Source: Natronococcus sp. A-GB1 (GTDB lineage: Archaea; Halobacteriota; Halobacteria; Halobacteriales; Natrialbaceae). From it: a stretch of 64,000 nt of DNA. The notes beneath the pieces were generated by a model that did not search any database, was not told the origin of the DNA, and was given only the letters and a program-made list of their open reading frames with translations. The stretch lies in assembly GCF_029688845.1 (NCBI RefSeq), contig NZ_JARUKW010000009.1, forward strand, positions 124,001 through 188,000, given 5' to 3'. The position numbers and the translations under genes are program-made. Each line of letters starts with the position of its first letter. Position 1 is the first letter of the stretch. Of the stretch, positions 46,408 to 53,339 are shown piece by piece.

Positions 46408-47244
46408 TCACCGCAGCCGGGAGAGCGGGTTTCCGATGTCGAACCGCTCCGTGACCGACCACCGACCGACGAGGATGCCCGCGAGTTCGACGCAGACGTA
46501 CGCGAGGACGATTCCCGCGACGACGTCGATCGCCCAGTGGATCCCCAGGTACATCGTCGAGATCGCGACGCTGATCGCGAGCGGGACCGCGACGATGGCC
46601 CAGCGCGGGTAGACCGCCCGGGTCTGGTAAGCCAGGATACCGACGGTGGCGGCGAGTGAGGTGTGCAGCGAGGGGAAGACGTTGGTGTTACGGTTGACCT
46701 GCCGAGTGAGGTGCTGGTAGCGCGGATAGGTGTCGTACATCAGCGCCTCGACGAGCTCGGGCATCATGTTGCGCGGTCCGTAGGCGATAACAAGTGTGTA
46801 GAGTGCCAGCCCGAGCACGTAGTTGAGCGTGTAGGCAGTCAGCAGCTCCCCCAGCGGTCGCGTGTTCGACAGCGCGAAGTAGGCGATCACGGGGAAAATC
46901 AGCAGGAAGACGTAGCCGTAGATGTAGACGAACGAGAAGAACGCCGTCAGCGCCGGCGTCTCGAAGGACTGCAGCCAGAGGATGAACTGGCCCTCGATGT
47001 CGTAGATCGCCCACGTGAGGTTCCAGCCGAACATCCAGGAGAGATCGGGAACGACCTGCCTGGCGACGCCGTTGCCGAGCAACACGACGACGAGGACGAC
47101 CGTGATCGGCGTGGCCGCGCGAAGTCGGGACGCCCACTCGCGGCGCGTATCCCGGAGTCGGTAGCGACCGACGATAACCGCGATCCCCGCGAGCGTCAGC
47201 AGGGTGACGACGACGGCCAGCTGGAGCAACACCTGGACCAACAT
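46408..47244 (-). CDS. PAP2-type membrane phosphatase/phosphotransferase (module 1)
   Basis: The 278-aa protein has about six transmembrane helices and the PAP2 core NTNVFPSLHTSLAATVG (the PSxH site) and STMYLGIHWAIDVVAG (SxxxxxxHxxxD). The K-x6-RP motif is weak; YGPRNMMPE takes its place. This matches the inositol-phosphotransferase-like PAP2 group, whose active site faces outside. Its ATG overlaps the stop of the solute-binding protein gene by one base, so the two are translationally coupled. A second copy lies at 49047. The substrate is unknown; lipid phosphates are likely. Confidence 0.87.
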   Translation of the reverse strand: MLVQVLLQLAVVVTLLTLAGIAVIVGRYRLRDTRREWASRLRAATPITVVLVVVLLGNGVARQVVPDLSWMFGWNLTWAIYDIEGQFILWLQSFETPALTAFFSFVYIYGYVFLLIFPVIAYFALSNTRPLGELLTAYTLNYVLGLALYTLVIAYGPRNMMPELVEALMYDTYPRYQHLTRQVNRNTNVFPSLHTSLAATVGILAYQTRAVYPRWAIVAVPLAISVAISTMYLGIHWAIDVVAGIVLAYVCVELAGILVGRWSVTERFDIGNPLSRLR

Positions 47245-48992
47245 TAGCGTCTCACCCGGAGCGCGCCGTCGTCGTAGCTGAAGCCGGCGTCCTCGAAGGC
47301 CTCCCTGGCGGCGTTGACGTCGAGCTCGCCGTCGGAACCGAAAAACGGCGTCGCCGGATCCTCGCCGTTCCAGGCGAGCTCCTCGGGCGTCCACTCCTCG
47401 GTGACCGGCGTCGCGGTCGGCGCGGCATAACCGTGGAAGACGTCCTCGACGAGCCAGTCCTTGTCGAGCAGCCCCGCGACGGCGCGTCGAAATCGGGCGT
47501 TTGCGAACGGTGCCCGACGGGTGTTGAACCCGAGGTGGTAGAACGTCCACGACGGCGACTCGAGCGGTGCCGTCTCCGGGGCCGGCTCGAGGTCGTCGAG
47601 AACGTACGTCTCGAGGATCGCGCTCGTGATGTCGGCGCCGTCCGTGTTGACGAGCTCGATCGCCGACGTGCTCCGCGGATCGATCTGTATCCGAAGCTCC
47701 TCGACGCTTGCCTCGGGGAGGTCGACGCCCTCGCGGCGGGTGAAGTGGTCGTCGAACCGCTCGAGGGTTACGTGTTCTCGCTCGGTCCGGCTCCCGAAGC
47801 GGAACGGACCGCTCCCGACCGGGGGGACGTTGTCGACCGTGACCGCCTCGGTGGCTCCCTGGGCGACGCTGACGCCGCGAACGGTGGCGGGCGCGGCCCG
47901 ATCCGCCCAGACGTGTTCGGGGAGGATCGGAACGGTGAGGACCCGCTCGGCGACCGCCTCGCCCGCGTCGAGTTCGAACTCGAGGTCGAGCTCGCCGTCG
48001 ACGTCGATCCCTTCGACGGCTGCCGCCAGCCCTCTGTACCGCGGCGGGGGCGACGGTGACTCGCCGCCCTCGAGTTCGGTATCCTGCAGCAACCGGTAGC
48101 TGAACTCGACGTCGTCGGCGTCGAGCGGTTCGTCGTCGTGGAACCGGCAGTCCTCGCGGAGCCGGACCCAAAGGGTGCCGTCGTCGTACGTCCAGTCCTC
48201 GGCCAGCCAGGGCTCGATCTCGCCGTCGCGCTCGGTCGCCAGCGAGTCGTACACCAGCTCGAGAAACGGCTCGTGATCCCGGTACTCGGCCGTCAACGGA
48301 TTAAGGTTCTCGGAGATGCGTGCGTCGGTGTGAGCCGTCCGCAGCCGGTCGACGTCGTCGCCGGCCTCGAGTTCGAGGTAGCCAAGCCGGGTCGCCGGGT
48401 GGGCCTCGCCCCAGCCGTCGAAGCGGTCGGTCCGGACGAAGCGGTGTTCTTCGGGCACGCAGATCGGGACGAACGGCTGTTCGCGAGCCAGCTCTTCGAG
48501 CAGCTCCGCGACGACGGCCTCCCGCTCCTCGCCGTCGGCTCGACGCTGGGCCTCGAGGAGATCGTCCAGTTGCAGGTTCGCGTAGCCGAAGGGGTTCTGC
48601 CAGCCGGACTCCTCGGCGTAGACCGAGTGCAACGCCTCGTAGAGGAGGTCCGGATCGGTGCCGCCGGGGTGGCGACCGACGTAGAGGTCGAACTCGTGGT
48701 TTATGAGGATCGCCCGCAGGAACTCCTCGTTCGAACGCATATCGACGGAGACGTCGACGCCGACGGCCTCGAGGACGGCGGCGACCTCCCTGGCGAGGCG
48801 GATCCCCTCGCGGTCGCCGTCGGCCGGCAGGGTGACGATGGTCACGGAGAGCTGATCGACCGCGTCGCGGTTGACGACGGTTCGAACCTGGCGAACGCAG
48901 CCGCTGGTCGCGACGGTGAGCCCCGCAGTGCCGGCGAGAACCGCGCGTCGACTACGGGGACGCCCGGGGGATGCCGTCTTCTCGTCGGTCAT
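47244..48992 (-). CDS. Family-5-type solute-binding lipoprotein with permuted segment order (module 1)
   Basis: The 582-aa lipoprotein has a twin-arginine-like signal (RSRRAVLAGTAGLTVATSGC, lipid Cys32). Residues about 45-195 resemble the usual C-terminal segment of SBP_bac_5 proteins (DGDREGIRLAREVAAVLEAV, GRHPGGTDPDLLYEALHS, GYANLQLDDLLEAQRRADGE). Residues from about 205 resemble the usual N-terminal segment (LVYDSLATERDGEIEPWLAE, FHDDEPLDADDVEFSYRLL). The end (FANARFRRAVAGLLDKDWLV, AREAFEDAGFSYDDG) resembles the usual middle. The chain looks circularly permuted. No permease or ATPase gene adjoins it; a PAP2 gene follows. Confidence 0.85.
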   Translation of the reverse strand: MTDEKTASPGRPRSRRAVLAGTAGLTVATSGCVRQVRTVVNRDAVDQLSVTIVTLPADGDREGIRLAREVAAVLEAVGVDVSVDMRSNEEFLRAILINHEFDLYVGRHPGGTDPDLLYEALHSVYAEESGWQNPFGYANLQLDDLLEAQRRADGEEREAVVAELLEELAREQPFVPICVPEEHRFVRTDRFDGWGEAHPATRLGYLELEAGDDVDRLRTAHTDARISENLNPLTAEYRDHEPFLELVYDSLATERDGEIEPWLAEDWTYDDGTLWVRLREDCRFHDDEPLDADDVEFSYRLLQDTELEGGESPSPPPRYRGLAAAVEGIDVDGELDLEFELDAGEAVAERVLTVPILPEHVWADRAAPATVRGVSVAQGATEAVTVDNVPPVGSGPFRFGSRTEREHVTLERFDDHFTRREGVDLPEASVEELRIQIDPRSTSAIELVNTDGADITSAILETYVLDDLEPAPETAPLESPSWTFYHLGFNTRRAPFANARFRRAVAGLLDKDWLVEDVFHGYAAPTATPVTEEWTPEELAWNGEDPATPFFGSDGELDVNAAREAFEDAGFSYDDGALRVRR

Positions 48993-49046
48993 TCGGTGGA
49001 TACCTTCAGTTCAGCCAGTGTCGGTATAACAGTATTGCGTTCGGGC

Positions 49047-49910
49047 TTACTCGCGATCGTCCCGCGGGGTCGGTCGCCGATCGAGGTACCGACGGAACCG
49101 GGCGACTGGCTGTCGGCCGACGAGGACTCCCGAGAGCCGGACGCAGACGCCGGCCAGGACCAGCCCGGCGACGACGTCGATCGCCCAGTGGATCCCCAAG
49201 TACATCGTCGAGACCGCGACGCTGGCCGCGAGGACGGCCGCGACGGGGAACCAGTAGGGGTAGCTCGAGCGCGTGATGTAGGCAAAGACGCCGACGGTGG
49301 CGGCAAGCGAGGTGTGTAGCGAGGGGAAGACGTTGGTGTTTCGGTTGACCTCCCGGGTGAGGTGTTGGTATTCGGGGCTGTTGTCGTACAGCATCGTTAC
49401 CGTCAGCTCCTCGGGCATCACGTTCCGCGGGCCGTAGGCGATGACCAGCAGGTAAAACGCCAGTCCGAGCACGTAGTTCAGCGAGTACGCCGTCAGCAGC
49501 CGGCGGAAGGTCCGCGTATCCGACAGCGCGAAGTACGCGATTCCCGGGAAGATCAGGAGGAACGCGTAGCCGTAGACGTAGATGAACGAGAAGTAGGCGG
49601 TCAGCTCCTCGGTCGCGATCGACTGAAAGAGCAGGACGAACTCCCCCTCGAGGTCGTAGAACGTCTCGGTCATGTGGAAGCCGATCGCGCCCTCGATCTC
49701 GTCGCCCCGCCAGCGAACGACGCGGTTGAGTCCCAACACGGCGGCCAGAACCGCGACCGCAGGCGCCGTGGCTTGGAGCCTGGATCGCCACTCCCTCGCG
49801 GTCGTGACGAGGCGGCCGCGGCCGACGAACAGCGCGATCGAGGTCAGAAGCAAGATCCCGACGACGACGGCGACCTGCGTCAGAACCCGGGTGAGAACCT
49901 CGGCGTACAT
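49047..49910 (-). CDS. PAP2-type membrane phosphatase/phosphotransferase (module 2)
   Basis: The 287-aa paralogue of the 46408 gene shares NTNVFPSLHTSLAATVG and STMYLGIHWAIDVVAG exactly, with about six helices and the same YGPRNVMPEE segment. It begins four bases after the stop of its own solute-binding protein gene. The C-terminal tail is longer and charged (RYLDRRPTPRDDRE). It lies 54 bp upstream of module 1 on the same strand, so all four genes may be one transcript. Confidence 0.87.
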   Translation of the reverse strand: MYAEVLTRVLTQVAVVVGILLLTSIALFVGRGRLVTTAREWRSRLQATAPAVAVLAAVLGLNRVVRWRGDEIEGAIGFHMTETFYDLEGEFVLLFQSIATEELTAYFSFIYVYGYAFLLIFPGIAYFALSDTRTFRRLLTAYSLNYVLGLAFYLLVIAYGPRNVMPEELTVTMLYDNSPEYQHLTREVNRNTNVFPSLHTSLAATVGVFAYITRSSYPYWFPVAAVLAASVAVSTMYLGIHWAIDVVAGLVLAGVCVRLSGVLVGRQPVARFRRYLDRRPTPRDDRE

Positions 49911-49914
49911 TGTG

Positions 49915-51708
49915 TTAGAGGCGGAGCCGCCCGTGATCGTCGTAGCGGTAGCCGGTGTCCTCGAAGGCGTCCCTGGCCGCCTCGACGTCGAGGTCGCCGT
50001 CGGAACCGAAAAACGGTGTGATCGGATCGTCGCCGTCCCACGTCAATCGCTCGGGAACCCACTCCTCGGGAAGCGGCGTCGCAGTCGGTGTGGCGTGCCC
50101 GTCGAACACCTCCTCGACGAGCCACGCCTTGTCGAGCAGTCCGGCGACCAGCCGTCGAGCGTGAGGATTGCTGAACGGCTCGATTCGCGCGTTGAATCCG
50201 ACGTGGTAGAACGTTTGCGACGGTGACTCGAGGTAGTCGATCTCCGGCTCGTCCGGGATCGTATCGAGCGCGTGGGCCTCGAGCATCGATGCCGTGAGAT
50301 CCGCGCCGTCGTTCGCGACGCGTTCGATCGAGGAGGCGCTCCCGGGGTCGATCCCGAACTGCAACCGCTCGATTTCGACCGACGGGAGGTCGACGTCCTC
50401 GCGGCGGGTAAAGTGATCGTCGTAGCGCTCGAGGGTGAGGTGTTCGCGCTCGCTCCGGCTCTCGAAGCGAAACGGGCCGCTGCCGACCGCCGGAACGTTG
50501 TCCATCGTCACGAGACCCCACTGCCCCTGCATCGCGGTGAACGTCTCGGTGTTCTCGGCGCGGGCGTCTACCTGTTCGCGCCAGCGATGTTCGGGGAGGA
50601 CCGGGACGGTGAGGGCGCGTTCGGCGGCCTCGTAGCCGGCCGAGAACTCGAGGCGAAGCTCGCGGTCGCTCTCGACGGTAACGTCCTCGAGCGTCGAGAC
50701 GTGGCTCCGGTAGCGGGGAGCCGGCGAGGTGAACTCGGCCCGGCCGAGCGCCGTGTCCTCGAGGAACCGATACGTAAAGGCGACGTCGTCGGCGGTAACT
50801 GGTTCGTCGTCGTGGAACCGACAGTCCTCGCGGAGCGTTACCGTCGCGCGGGTGATCGCGTCGTCGTCTTCCGTCTCTTCGATCTCCGTCTCTTCGATCG
50901 TCGTCGTCTCCCAGTCCTCGGCGAGCCAGGGGACGAGTTCGCCGTCGTGCTCGGTCGCCAGCGAGTCGTACAACAGATCGATCGTCGAGCCCTGCTCGCG
51001 AAGCGTCGCCGACAGCGGGTTCAGGTTCCGCGAGATTCGGGCGTCGGTGACCAGCACGCGAAGCCGATCGACGTCCTCGCTCGGCTCGAGGCCGAGGTAG
51101 CCGTGGCGGCTCTCCGGATGGTCGGCGTTCCAGCCGTCGACGCGATCGGTTCGAACCACGCGGTGTTCCTCGGGAAAGCAGATCGGATCGAACGGCTTCT
51201 CCTCGGCCAGCCCCTCGAGCAACGTCGCGATCCGCTCCCGCCGGCGCTCCCCGTCGACCCGTCGCTGGGCCTCGAGGTGACCGTCGACGGGCATGCTCGA
51301 GAAGCCGAGGGGGTTTTGCCAGCCCGATTCGTTCGCGTACGCCGAGTGGAGGGTCTCGTAGAGGAAGTCGGGGTCGTAGTCGGCGGGGTGGCGTCCGACG
51401 TAGAGATCGAACTCGTGGTCGATCAGGACGGCCTCGAGAAAGTTCGAGCGCGAGCGCATGTCGAGTGAGGCGTCAATCCCGACGGCTTCGAGGTGTTCCT
51501 CGAGGTGGCGGGCGATCCGGACGGCCTCTCTGTCGCCGTCCGCGGGAACCGTGGTGATAGAGAGCGAAAGGCGGTCGGTCTCCTGTCCGACGGCGCTCTC
51601 GACGCGATCGATACAGCCGCTGGTCGCGGTGGCGAGTCCGGCGACACCCGCTGCTAGCACCGAGCGTCGATCGATGCCGTTCGACCGAGTAGTTGACTGA
51701 CGATGCAT
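49915..51708 (-). CDS. Family-5-type solute-binding lipoprotein with permuted segment order (module 2)
   Basis: The 597-aa paralogue of the 47244 gene has a Tat lipoprotein signal (DRRSVLAAGVAGLATATSGC). The same rearranged order is seen: LSLSITTVPADGDREAVRIA and GRHPADYDPDFLYETLHS near the N-terminus, LLYDSLATEHDGELVPWLAE and FHDDEPVTADDVAFTYRFL in the middle, and SNPHARRLVAGLLDKAWLVE then AARDAFEDTGYRYDDHG at the end. An acidic insert (ETTTIEETEIEETEDDD) is absent from the paralogue. It is the first gene of the four-gene minus-strand cluster. The ligand is unknown. Confidence 0.85.
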   Translation of the reverse strand: MHRQSTTRSNGIDRRSVLAAGVAGLATATSGCIDRVESAVGQETDRLSLSITTVPADGDREAVRIARHLEEHLEAVGIDASLDMRSRSNFLEAVLIDHEFDLYVGRHPADYDPDFLYETLHSAYANESGWQNPLGFSSMPVDGHLEAQRRVDGERRRERIATLLEGLAEEKPFDPICFPEEHRVVRTDRVDGWNADHPESRHGYLGLEPSEDVDRLRVLVTDARISRNLNPLSATLREQGSTIDLLYDSLATEHDGELVPWLAEDWETTTIEETEIEETEDDDAITRATVTLREDCRFHDDEPVTADDVAFTYRFLEDTALGRAEFTSPAPRYRSHVSTLEDVTVESDRELRLEFSAGYEAAERALTVPVLPEHRWREQVDARAENTETFTAMQGQWGLVTMDNVPAVGSGPFRFESRSEREHLTLERYDDHFTRREDVDLPSVEIERLQFGIDPGSASSIERVANDGADLTASMLEAHALDTIPDEPEIDYLESPSQTFYHVGFNARIEPFSNPHARRLVAGLLDKAWLVEEVFDGHATPTATPLPEEWVPERLTWDGDDPITPFFGSDGDLDVEAARDAFEDTGYRYDDHGRLRL

Positions 51709-52200: not shown

Positions 52201-52449
52201 ATGGATATCGAAGAGCGAAAGCGAAAGGCCCACGACCTGGACGTCACCGTCTGGGTCGGCAAGAGCGGGCTCGAGGCGGTCGTCGACGAACTCGACGATC
52301 AGCTTTCCAACGAGGACCTCGTGAAGGTGAAGTTCCTGCGAGCCGCTCGAGCTGGGGACTCCACCGATGAGAAAGCGACTGATCTCGCCGAGCGAGTTAA
52401 CGCCGAACTCGTCGACGTCCGCGGTCACACGGCGGTTCTGTACCGATGA
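52201..52449 (+). CDS. YhbY/CRM-domain RNA-binding protein
   Basis: The 82-aa protein is a single CRM domain with VTVWVGKSGLEAVVDELDDQL, LVKVKFLRAAR and the closing GHTAVLYR. The GxxG-like loop (VGKSG) is intact. CRM/YhbY proteins associate with pre-ribosomal RNA. The ATG at 52201 is preferred over the earlier in-frame start. The stop overlaps the MscS gene by ATGA. Confidence 0.87.
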   Translation: MDIEERKRKAHDLDVTVWVGKSGLEAVVDELDDQLSNEDLVKVKFLRAARAGDSTDEKATDLAERVNAELVDVRGHTAVLYR

Positions 52450-53339
52450 ACGCCGCAGGAACGCTCGTCCAGGTCGAAGATATCAACGCGCTCGAGACGG
52501 CGACGCTCGTCGACATCGCGATCACGGGACTCCGGTTCCTCGCCGCGTTCGTCGTTGTGGTGATGATCGGACGGTTCGTCCTCGTGCCGCTGGTCAACCG
52601 CGCGTTCGATCGGCGCGAACTGGACGAACACGTCAGGAATCCGCTGTTGATGCTGACACGGTTCGGCATCCTCTTCGTCGCCATCGCGGCCGCGTTCGGC
52701 TTCGCCGGCTTCGAGAACTTCCTCGTGTCGCTGGCTGGCATCGCCGCAGCCGGGGCGCTCGCGATCGGGCTGGCGATGCAGAACGTCATCTCGAACTTCG
52801 TCGCGGGAATCTTCATCTACGCCGACAAGCCGTTCCGGATCGGCGACTGGATCGAGTGGGACGGCGGCGACTACGCCGGCGTCGTCGAGGATATCAGCCT
52901 TCGCGTGACCCGTGTCCGAACGTTCGACAACGAGTTGCTGACCGTTCCCAACTCCGCGCTCACCGGCGGGGTCGTCAAGAACCCCGTCGACGGGGACAAG
53001 CTCCGACTGAAGTTCGTTTTCGGCATCGGCTACGACGACGACATCCAGCAGGCGACCGACATCATCGTCGAGGAGGCAAAGCGCCACCCCGATATCATGG
53101 ACGACCCCGAGCCGGCCGTCCGCCTGACCGAACTCAACGACTCCGACGTCGGCCTCCAGTCGCGGATCTGGATCTCGGATCCCTCGAGAGCCGACTTCGT
53201 CCGCATCAAAGGCGAGTTCATCACCGCCGTCAAGGGGCGCTTCGACGAGGAGGGGATCGATATCCCCTACCCGGTTCGGACGCTCGAGGGCGGTCTCGAG
53301 CTCGAAGACCGACAGACGGTCGGGCAAGCGGCCGAATAG
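52446..53339 (+). CDS. MscS family mechanosensitive channel
   Basis: The 297-aa protein has three N-terminal helices and the pore helix FAGFENFLVSLAGIAAAGALAIGLAMQNVISNFVAGIFI. The cytoplasmic MscS beta domain follows (FRIGDWIEWDGGDYAGVVEDISLRVTRVRTFDNELLTVPN). It opens under membrane tension on osmotic downshock. The C-terminal vestibule is complete. It is the last gene of the rnp4 operon. Confidence 0.92.
   Translation: MNAAGTLVQVEDINALETATLVDIAITGLRFLAAFVVVVMIGRFVLVPLVNRAFDRRELDEHVRNPLLMLTRFGILFVAIAAAFGFAGFENFLVSLAGIAAAGALAIGLAMQNVISNFVAGIFIYADKPFRIGDWIEWDGGDYAGVVEDISLRVTRVRTFDNELLTVPNSALTGGVVKNPVDGDKLRLKFVFGIGYDDDIQQATDIIVEEAKRHPDIMDDPEPAVRLTELNDSDVGLQSRIWISDPSRADFVRIKGEFITAVKGRFDEEGIDIPYPVRTLEGGLELEDRQTVGQAAE

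Follow-up and report, generated by a model that had tools for sequence, protein, structure and literature searches.

Permuted family-5 solute-binding proteins in Natronococcus and the probable recurrence of circular permutation in archaea

Few nutrient-binding families are as large or as well studied as the family-5 solute-binding proteins (SBPs), and circular permutation of a protein chain is commonly regarded as an accident that seldom happens or as a laboratory trick. The closest natural precedent for the proteins described here belongs to another SBP class. TpMglB-2 (Tp0684) of Treponema pallidum is a natural circular permutant, a membrane-tethered ABC binding protein of Type I (cluster B), and its permutation was shown by crystal structure, together with glucose binding and closure (PMC4990184). 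Its authors raised for their own protein a tether idea similar to the one considered below (PMC4990184). The two cases share the natural circular permutation of a tethered binding protein. They differ in that TpMglB-2 is a bacterial protein of the Type I sugar class with a different cut, whereas the present proteins are archaeal members of family 5, with two cut sites and recurrent permutation. The structure and sequence matches listed for the proteins studied here were all family-5 type SBPs, with none of the Type I sugar kind. A literature search limited to open-licence papers found no published report of circular permutation in a family-5 SBP, and SBPs are absent from the main text of a recent circular-permutation method paper.

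The window considered here is the whole analysed stretch of 64,000 nucleotides from the halophilic archaeon Natronococcus sp. A-GB1. Two of its surface proteins, P0001 and P0002, are like the SBP_bac_5 (cluster C) proteins OppA, DppA, NikA, NikZ and AppA in sequence and in the predicted fold of both of their blocks. Canonical members of this family run in the order N1-N2-C, whereas the window proteins run C-N1-N2. The same genome also encodes canonical family-5 SBPs (L173, L174, L175), which belong to the same Pfam family and carry the same kind of lipobox signal, but each of these gives a single collinear PF00496 match over nearly the whole profile in the order N1-N2-C. The explanation argued for below, very probably correct as a whole, is that the window proteins have a naturally permuted SBP_bac_5 fold, that such permutants are recurrent in archaea, and that the divergent ones serve ABC import. 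Here, circular permutation is conserved across an archaeal class, recurrent at the same loop and present at a second loop as well.

Block order and predicted fold of the window proteins

The genes follow one another on the minus strand in the order P0002, PAP2, P0001, PAP2 (window positions 46408-51708; Table 1). Both SBP reading frames are uninterrupted, each with an RR...TSGC signal and lipobox, and the motifs FPSLH and GIHWAID are readable in the PAP2 neighbour sequence. The SBP-PAP2 pair is present as a tandem duplicate whose SBPs are ~60% identical, and adjacent paired SBP copies likewise occur in other Natrialbaceae genomes. The nearest named relative of P0001, at 97%, is that of N. amylolyticus. 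Upstream of the pairs, on the plus strand, lies a gene for an MscS-type mechanosensitive channel (52446-53339, by Pfam).

Table 1. Features of the SBP-PAP2 region, with positions in the window
Feature	Position	Strand	Evidence
P0002: permuted family-5 solute-binding lipoprotein, 597 aa, order C-N1-N2	49915..51708	-	PF00496 E 2.6e-40, two stretches in swapped order; block-order call
P0002 Tat-type signal (DRRSVLAAG) and lipobox TSGC, residues 1-32	51613..51708	-	Read from sequence
P0002 N-terminal block (residues 40-193), equal to canonical C-terminal block	51130..51591	-	Block profile 212.8 bits; family block by hhalign to canonical columns 371-518
P0002 main block (residues 204-595), equal to canonical N-terminal two thirds, N1+N2	49924..51099	-	Pfam profile 1-282 on residues 257-591; block-order call
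PAP2-family membrane phosphatase, start 4 nt past P0002 stop	49047..49910	-	PF14378 E 2.1e-18 and PF01569 E 2.6e-11, both above cut-off
P0001: permuted family-5 solute-binding lipoprotein, 582 aa, order C-N1-N2	47244..48992	-	PF00496 E 2.3e-47, two stretches; AlphaFold mean pLDDT 89.5, pTM 0.88
P0001 twin-arginine signal (SRRAVLAG) and lipobox TSGC, residues 1-32	48897..48992	-	Read from sequence
P0001 N-terminal block (residues 41-194), equal to canonical C-terminal block	48411..48872	-	hhalign E 5.4e-19 to canonical columns 371-518; own model matches SBP chain residues ~335-520
P0001 main block (residues 205-578), equal to canonical N-terminal two thirds, N1+N2	47259..48380	-	Canonical columns 41-363 by hhalign (E 2e-52); 4oet_A residues 1-328 by VIA-align (Z 22.6)
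PAP2-family membrane phosphatase, ATG overlapping P0001 stop as TAATG	46408..47244	-	PF14378 E 9e-19 and PF01569 E 3.4e-11, both above cut-off

In both proteins, the last third of a canonical SBP_bac_5 chain is placed first, straight after the Tat/lipobox signal. PF00496, with its cut-off at 32.4 bits, gives the two proteins scores of 162.3 and 139.1 bits, and its match splits in two in each of them. The best part covers profile positions 1-283 on residues 258-576 of P0001 and 1-282 on residues 257-591 of P0002; profile positions 287-360 map to the N-terminal part of P0002. A phmmer comparison with the crystal structure 5u4o gave three stretches in swapped order, with query residues 244-306 on 72-136, 391-571 on 198-359, and 64-189 on 376-500. 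For hhalign, 51 family members, the N-terminal block by itself and 20 canonical relatives were used as input. The main block (~205-578) aligned with columns 41-363 of the canonical alignment at E 2e-52, and the N-terminal block with columns 371-518 at E 5.4e-19. With these columns of 580 covered, the whole fold is represented and the blocks abut; the hhalign maps limit the loss at the new ends to a few residues.

The initial annotation had described this order in both paralogues, with the last block directly behind the lipobox and the chain ending at the AREAFEDAG or ARDAFEDTG segment, and had interpreted it as a natural circular permutation. The chain ends are as described, and the two swapped blocks, recovered by Pfam, phmmer, hhalign and two structure models as collinear matches in reversed order, support the interpretation. 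Of the two outcomes that it had named as contrary, a single collinear match in the order N1-N2-C was absent from both window proteins by PF00496 and by the block-order call. The other, an unrelated N-terminal domain, was not found either, the best matches of that block being the C-terminal thirds of family-5 SBPs.

Predicted structures were aligned to canonical ones separately for the two blocks. AlphaFold modelled mature P0001 with a mean pLDDT of 89.5 and a pTM of 0.88. By VIA-align, residues ~178-551 of the mature model correspond to the first ~350 residues of canonical SBPs (Z 22.6 against 4oet_A); against 1dpp_A, model residues 184..551 fall on chain residues 1..347. Since the whole-model matches of Foldseek and VIA-align were mostly limited to the main block, the N-terminal block was modelled by itself. 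This second model is of moderate confidence (pLDDT 73). The VIA-align matches listed for it are family-5 SBPs, at residues ~335-520 in most rows, and their Z of 7-8 (up to 8.0) is middling by the VIA-align guide. The permuted chain would presumably close into the usual two-lobed binder.

The permuted chain has its new ends in a loop that connects the (E/A)KxLLxEAG-type helix to the following strand. In DppA, residue 347 is the last to align with the C-terminal block of the permuted chain and residue 357 the first to align with its N-terminal block. The initial annotation had put the new N-terminus near the hinge, a placement that finds no support, as the site of the new ends at DppA 347-357 is presumably inside the second lobe, away from the hinge. 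Judged from topology, the lipid anchor would hang from a loop of the second lobe, whereas in canonical SBP_bac_5 proteins it is the first lobe that bears both termini; the membrane anchor would accordingly sit on the other lobe.

Gene neighbourhood and possible function

Divergent permuted SBPs and the branch to which the window proteins belong are found in different gene surroundings. Both Opp/Dpp-type permeases are encoded at 18/18 divergent permuted loci (L076-L093), and Pfam identified BPD_transp_1, OppC_N and oligo_HPY ATPases at the example loci searched. The divergent permuted SBPs probably feed Opp/Dpp-type ABC importers, because the SBP slot of these operons, the same place that canonical cluster C proteins hold, is theirs. 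The window branch differs from canonical cluster C in having an Opp/Dpp permease within 4 kb at only one of the 73 named loci. PAP2 is directly downstream at 71 of these 73.

Two roles can be envisaged for the window-branch SBP, which would either be a tethered ligand-binding partner of PAP2 or bind for a transporter whose genes lie elsewhere. The first can be put forward tentatively from gene order: the window-branch SBPs may have left ABC transport and, tethered to the membrane, may capture a ligand for the co-encoded PAP2 membrane phosphatase. No less possible is that the window pair work as ordinary SBPs for an ABC importer encoded at another site, with PAP2 as an incidental neighbour. Permuted haloarchaeal relatives do sit in ABC operons, and canonical family-5 SBPs of the source genome have permease-like genes beside them in some loci. 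Set against an incidental neighbour are the constancy of the next downstream PAP2 gene across named loci from many haloarchaeal families, the stop-codon coupling seen in the window, and the near absence of Opp/Dpp permeases from the vicinity noted above. A partnership with PAP2 would belong to an archaeal group with repeated permutation of the family-5 fold, at two sites and with a presumed change in which lobe is fixed to the membrane, and the pairing suggests that this fold is used outside import. No SBP-PAP2 fusion occurs in the fetched loci. Long open frames in several genomes were considered as such fusions and rejected, being upstream read-through.

The source genome holds four permuted family-5 proteins (two on contig C57, one each on C54 and C45) beside four canonical ones. 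The protein on C54 (L075:7955-9700) forms a third pair of permuted SBP and PAP2 and is 33-35% identical. The one on C45 (L176:7946-9883), a permuted SBP too, is divergent and 645 aa long, with an insert of ~150 aa between the profile-matched parts.

Spread of the permuted order and a second cut site

The initial annotation had made its case from two paralogues, which proved too small a frame: permuted proteins are widespread in Halobacteria, the permutation recurs in other archaea, and there is a second cut site. Homologues at E 1e-30 or better are found in 264 of 391 haloarchaeal genomes and in 69 of 86 genera. The best haloarchaeal matches listed are nearly all full-length and in permuted order, and this order is kept in members with identity as low as 24-26%. 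Beyond Halobacteria, C-N1-N2 also occurs in other euryarchaea (L076, L077, L078, L194) and in Asgard archaea (L205/L210, L206/L211, L215). Among the open reading frames of the fetched loci, which form a similarity-built sample and no census, 158 were C-N, 22 canonical and 17 N2-C-N1, with 5 unresolved by the script. Among the matches listed for Cyanobacteria (117 genomes), which start at profile position 160 or beyond, canonical order alone was seen. On plasmids, 1386 records match one permuted query, but coverage in a single place reaches 80% or more in only 18 of them; the match at the top of the list is haloarchaeal. One permuted relative is annotated merely as "ABC transporter substrate-binding protein", a generic label by which the topology is hidden.

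The order N2-C-N1 was found in 16 Asgard proteins, Candidatus Hermodarchaeota among them. Like the window proteins, these (L168, L171, L172, L209, L213, L214) are natural permutants of the family-5 fold, but the cut differs and lies between N1 and N2, after PVGSGPF. In L168, residues 49-263 match PF00496 profile positions 141-344 unbroken, spanning the former N2-C border. The N2-C-N1 proteins of Asgard archaea form one tree group with 97-100% support. SBP-like proteins of this order are present at L168, L169, L171, L172, L209, L213, L214, L216, L217 and L218. At L209, five N2-C-N1 copies lie in one stretch, and an ABC ATPase signature was not found nearby.

Recurrence and origin of the permutation

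Trees were built from blocks rearranged to canonical order, using a short search with SH-aLRT support on 73-75 rows; long branches and composition bias were flagged as caveats. Tree groups were defined by block order ahead of tree building. The tree needs seven order changes, as against two that would be sufficient, and a single clade for all C-N1-N2 rows is rejected, at a cost of 485 log-likelihood units (p-AU 2e-18).

Close pairs of orthologues that differ in chain order are informative in this respect. In the Asgard pair L206 (permuted) and L207 (canonical), the blocks in their swapped places are 57% (main block) and 63% (C block) identical, and the C-terminal membrane anchors match at 64%. 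Their operons are likewise similar, with permB 72%, permC 54% and the ATPases 70-72% identical. Among haloarchaea, the permuted L087/L199 match the canonical L202 at 45% and 34-36%, and in the operons of L087 and L202 permB is 65% identical. L206/L207 and L087/L202 each stay paired in the C-block and N-block trees with support of 98-100. The rejection of a single clade, together with these close canonical and permuted orthologues in equivalent operons, indicates that the permutation recurred.

The permutation thus arose several times in archaea, probably by way of tandem duplication within the gene. Along this route, the binding domain would be duplicated in tandem inside the gene and its outer parts would then be lost, while signal and anchor stay put. 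The route is suggested because signal and anchor keep their place while the C block moves. A duplicated intermediate, with two C blocks in one reading frame, was not present among all frames of at least 400 aa in the fetched loci.

A history with one old permutation, in which canonical members of permuted groups would stem from reversion or horizontal transfer, is unlikely. It draws on the 27 haloarchaeal permuted rows, which form one group at 99% in the N1+N2 tree, so that a single event accounts for most of the spread among haloarchaea. The cost of joining all permuted rows and the position of L206/L207 and L087/L202 as close sisters in both block trees speak against extending that event to the remainder, and a reversion is no less rare than a fresh permutation. 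The well-supported Asgard group with the second cut means at least two events regardless.

Repeated permutation is also to be preferred to a chimaera, in which the N-terminal block would have been acquired from a different SBP gene by fusion or recombination. Tandem SBP genes such as those in the window, or the five at L209, would allow fusion across genes. The scenario is nevertheless very improbable: the C-block-only and N1+N2-only trees each keep both tested pairs together, which argues against a borrowed C block, and in L206/L207 the degree of similarity is about the same for both blocks, with the anchor retained at the C-terminus. Practically no credence is left for an unrelated N-terminal domain or an assembly or frame artefact, since the block, although weakly matched in single-sequence searches (20.7 bits by Pfam, 18.8 bits by phmmer), matches canonical C-terminal blocks as a profile at E 5.4e-19 and PDB chains in the expected place (1xoc 370-495 at E 2.6e-8; 1dpp 357-487), its own model matches family-5 SBPs, and the order is common to hundreds of genomes, named complete chromosomes included, as fits the initial annotation's view that no assembly error is involved.

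The permuted and canonical proteins together amount to a natural experiment that asks if such binding proteins are sensitive to chain order and to the membrane tether. The two orthologous operon pairs with both versions make possible a direct test of the effect of chain order, folding path and tether position on binding and docking. L207 (L219:5819-7372 and upstream) carries TAG in frame at a position held by Trp in L206, which may reflect gene decay, a draft error or readthrough; the order of the L207 blocks can nevertheless be read. An Asgard OppC-like permease (L221:5079-6653, L219:3162-4706) of ~520 aa matches OppC_N only from residue 240 and so has a long N-terminal extension.
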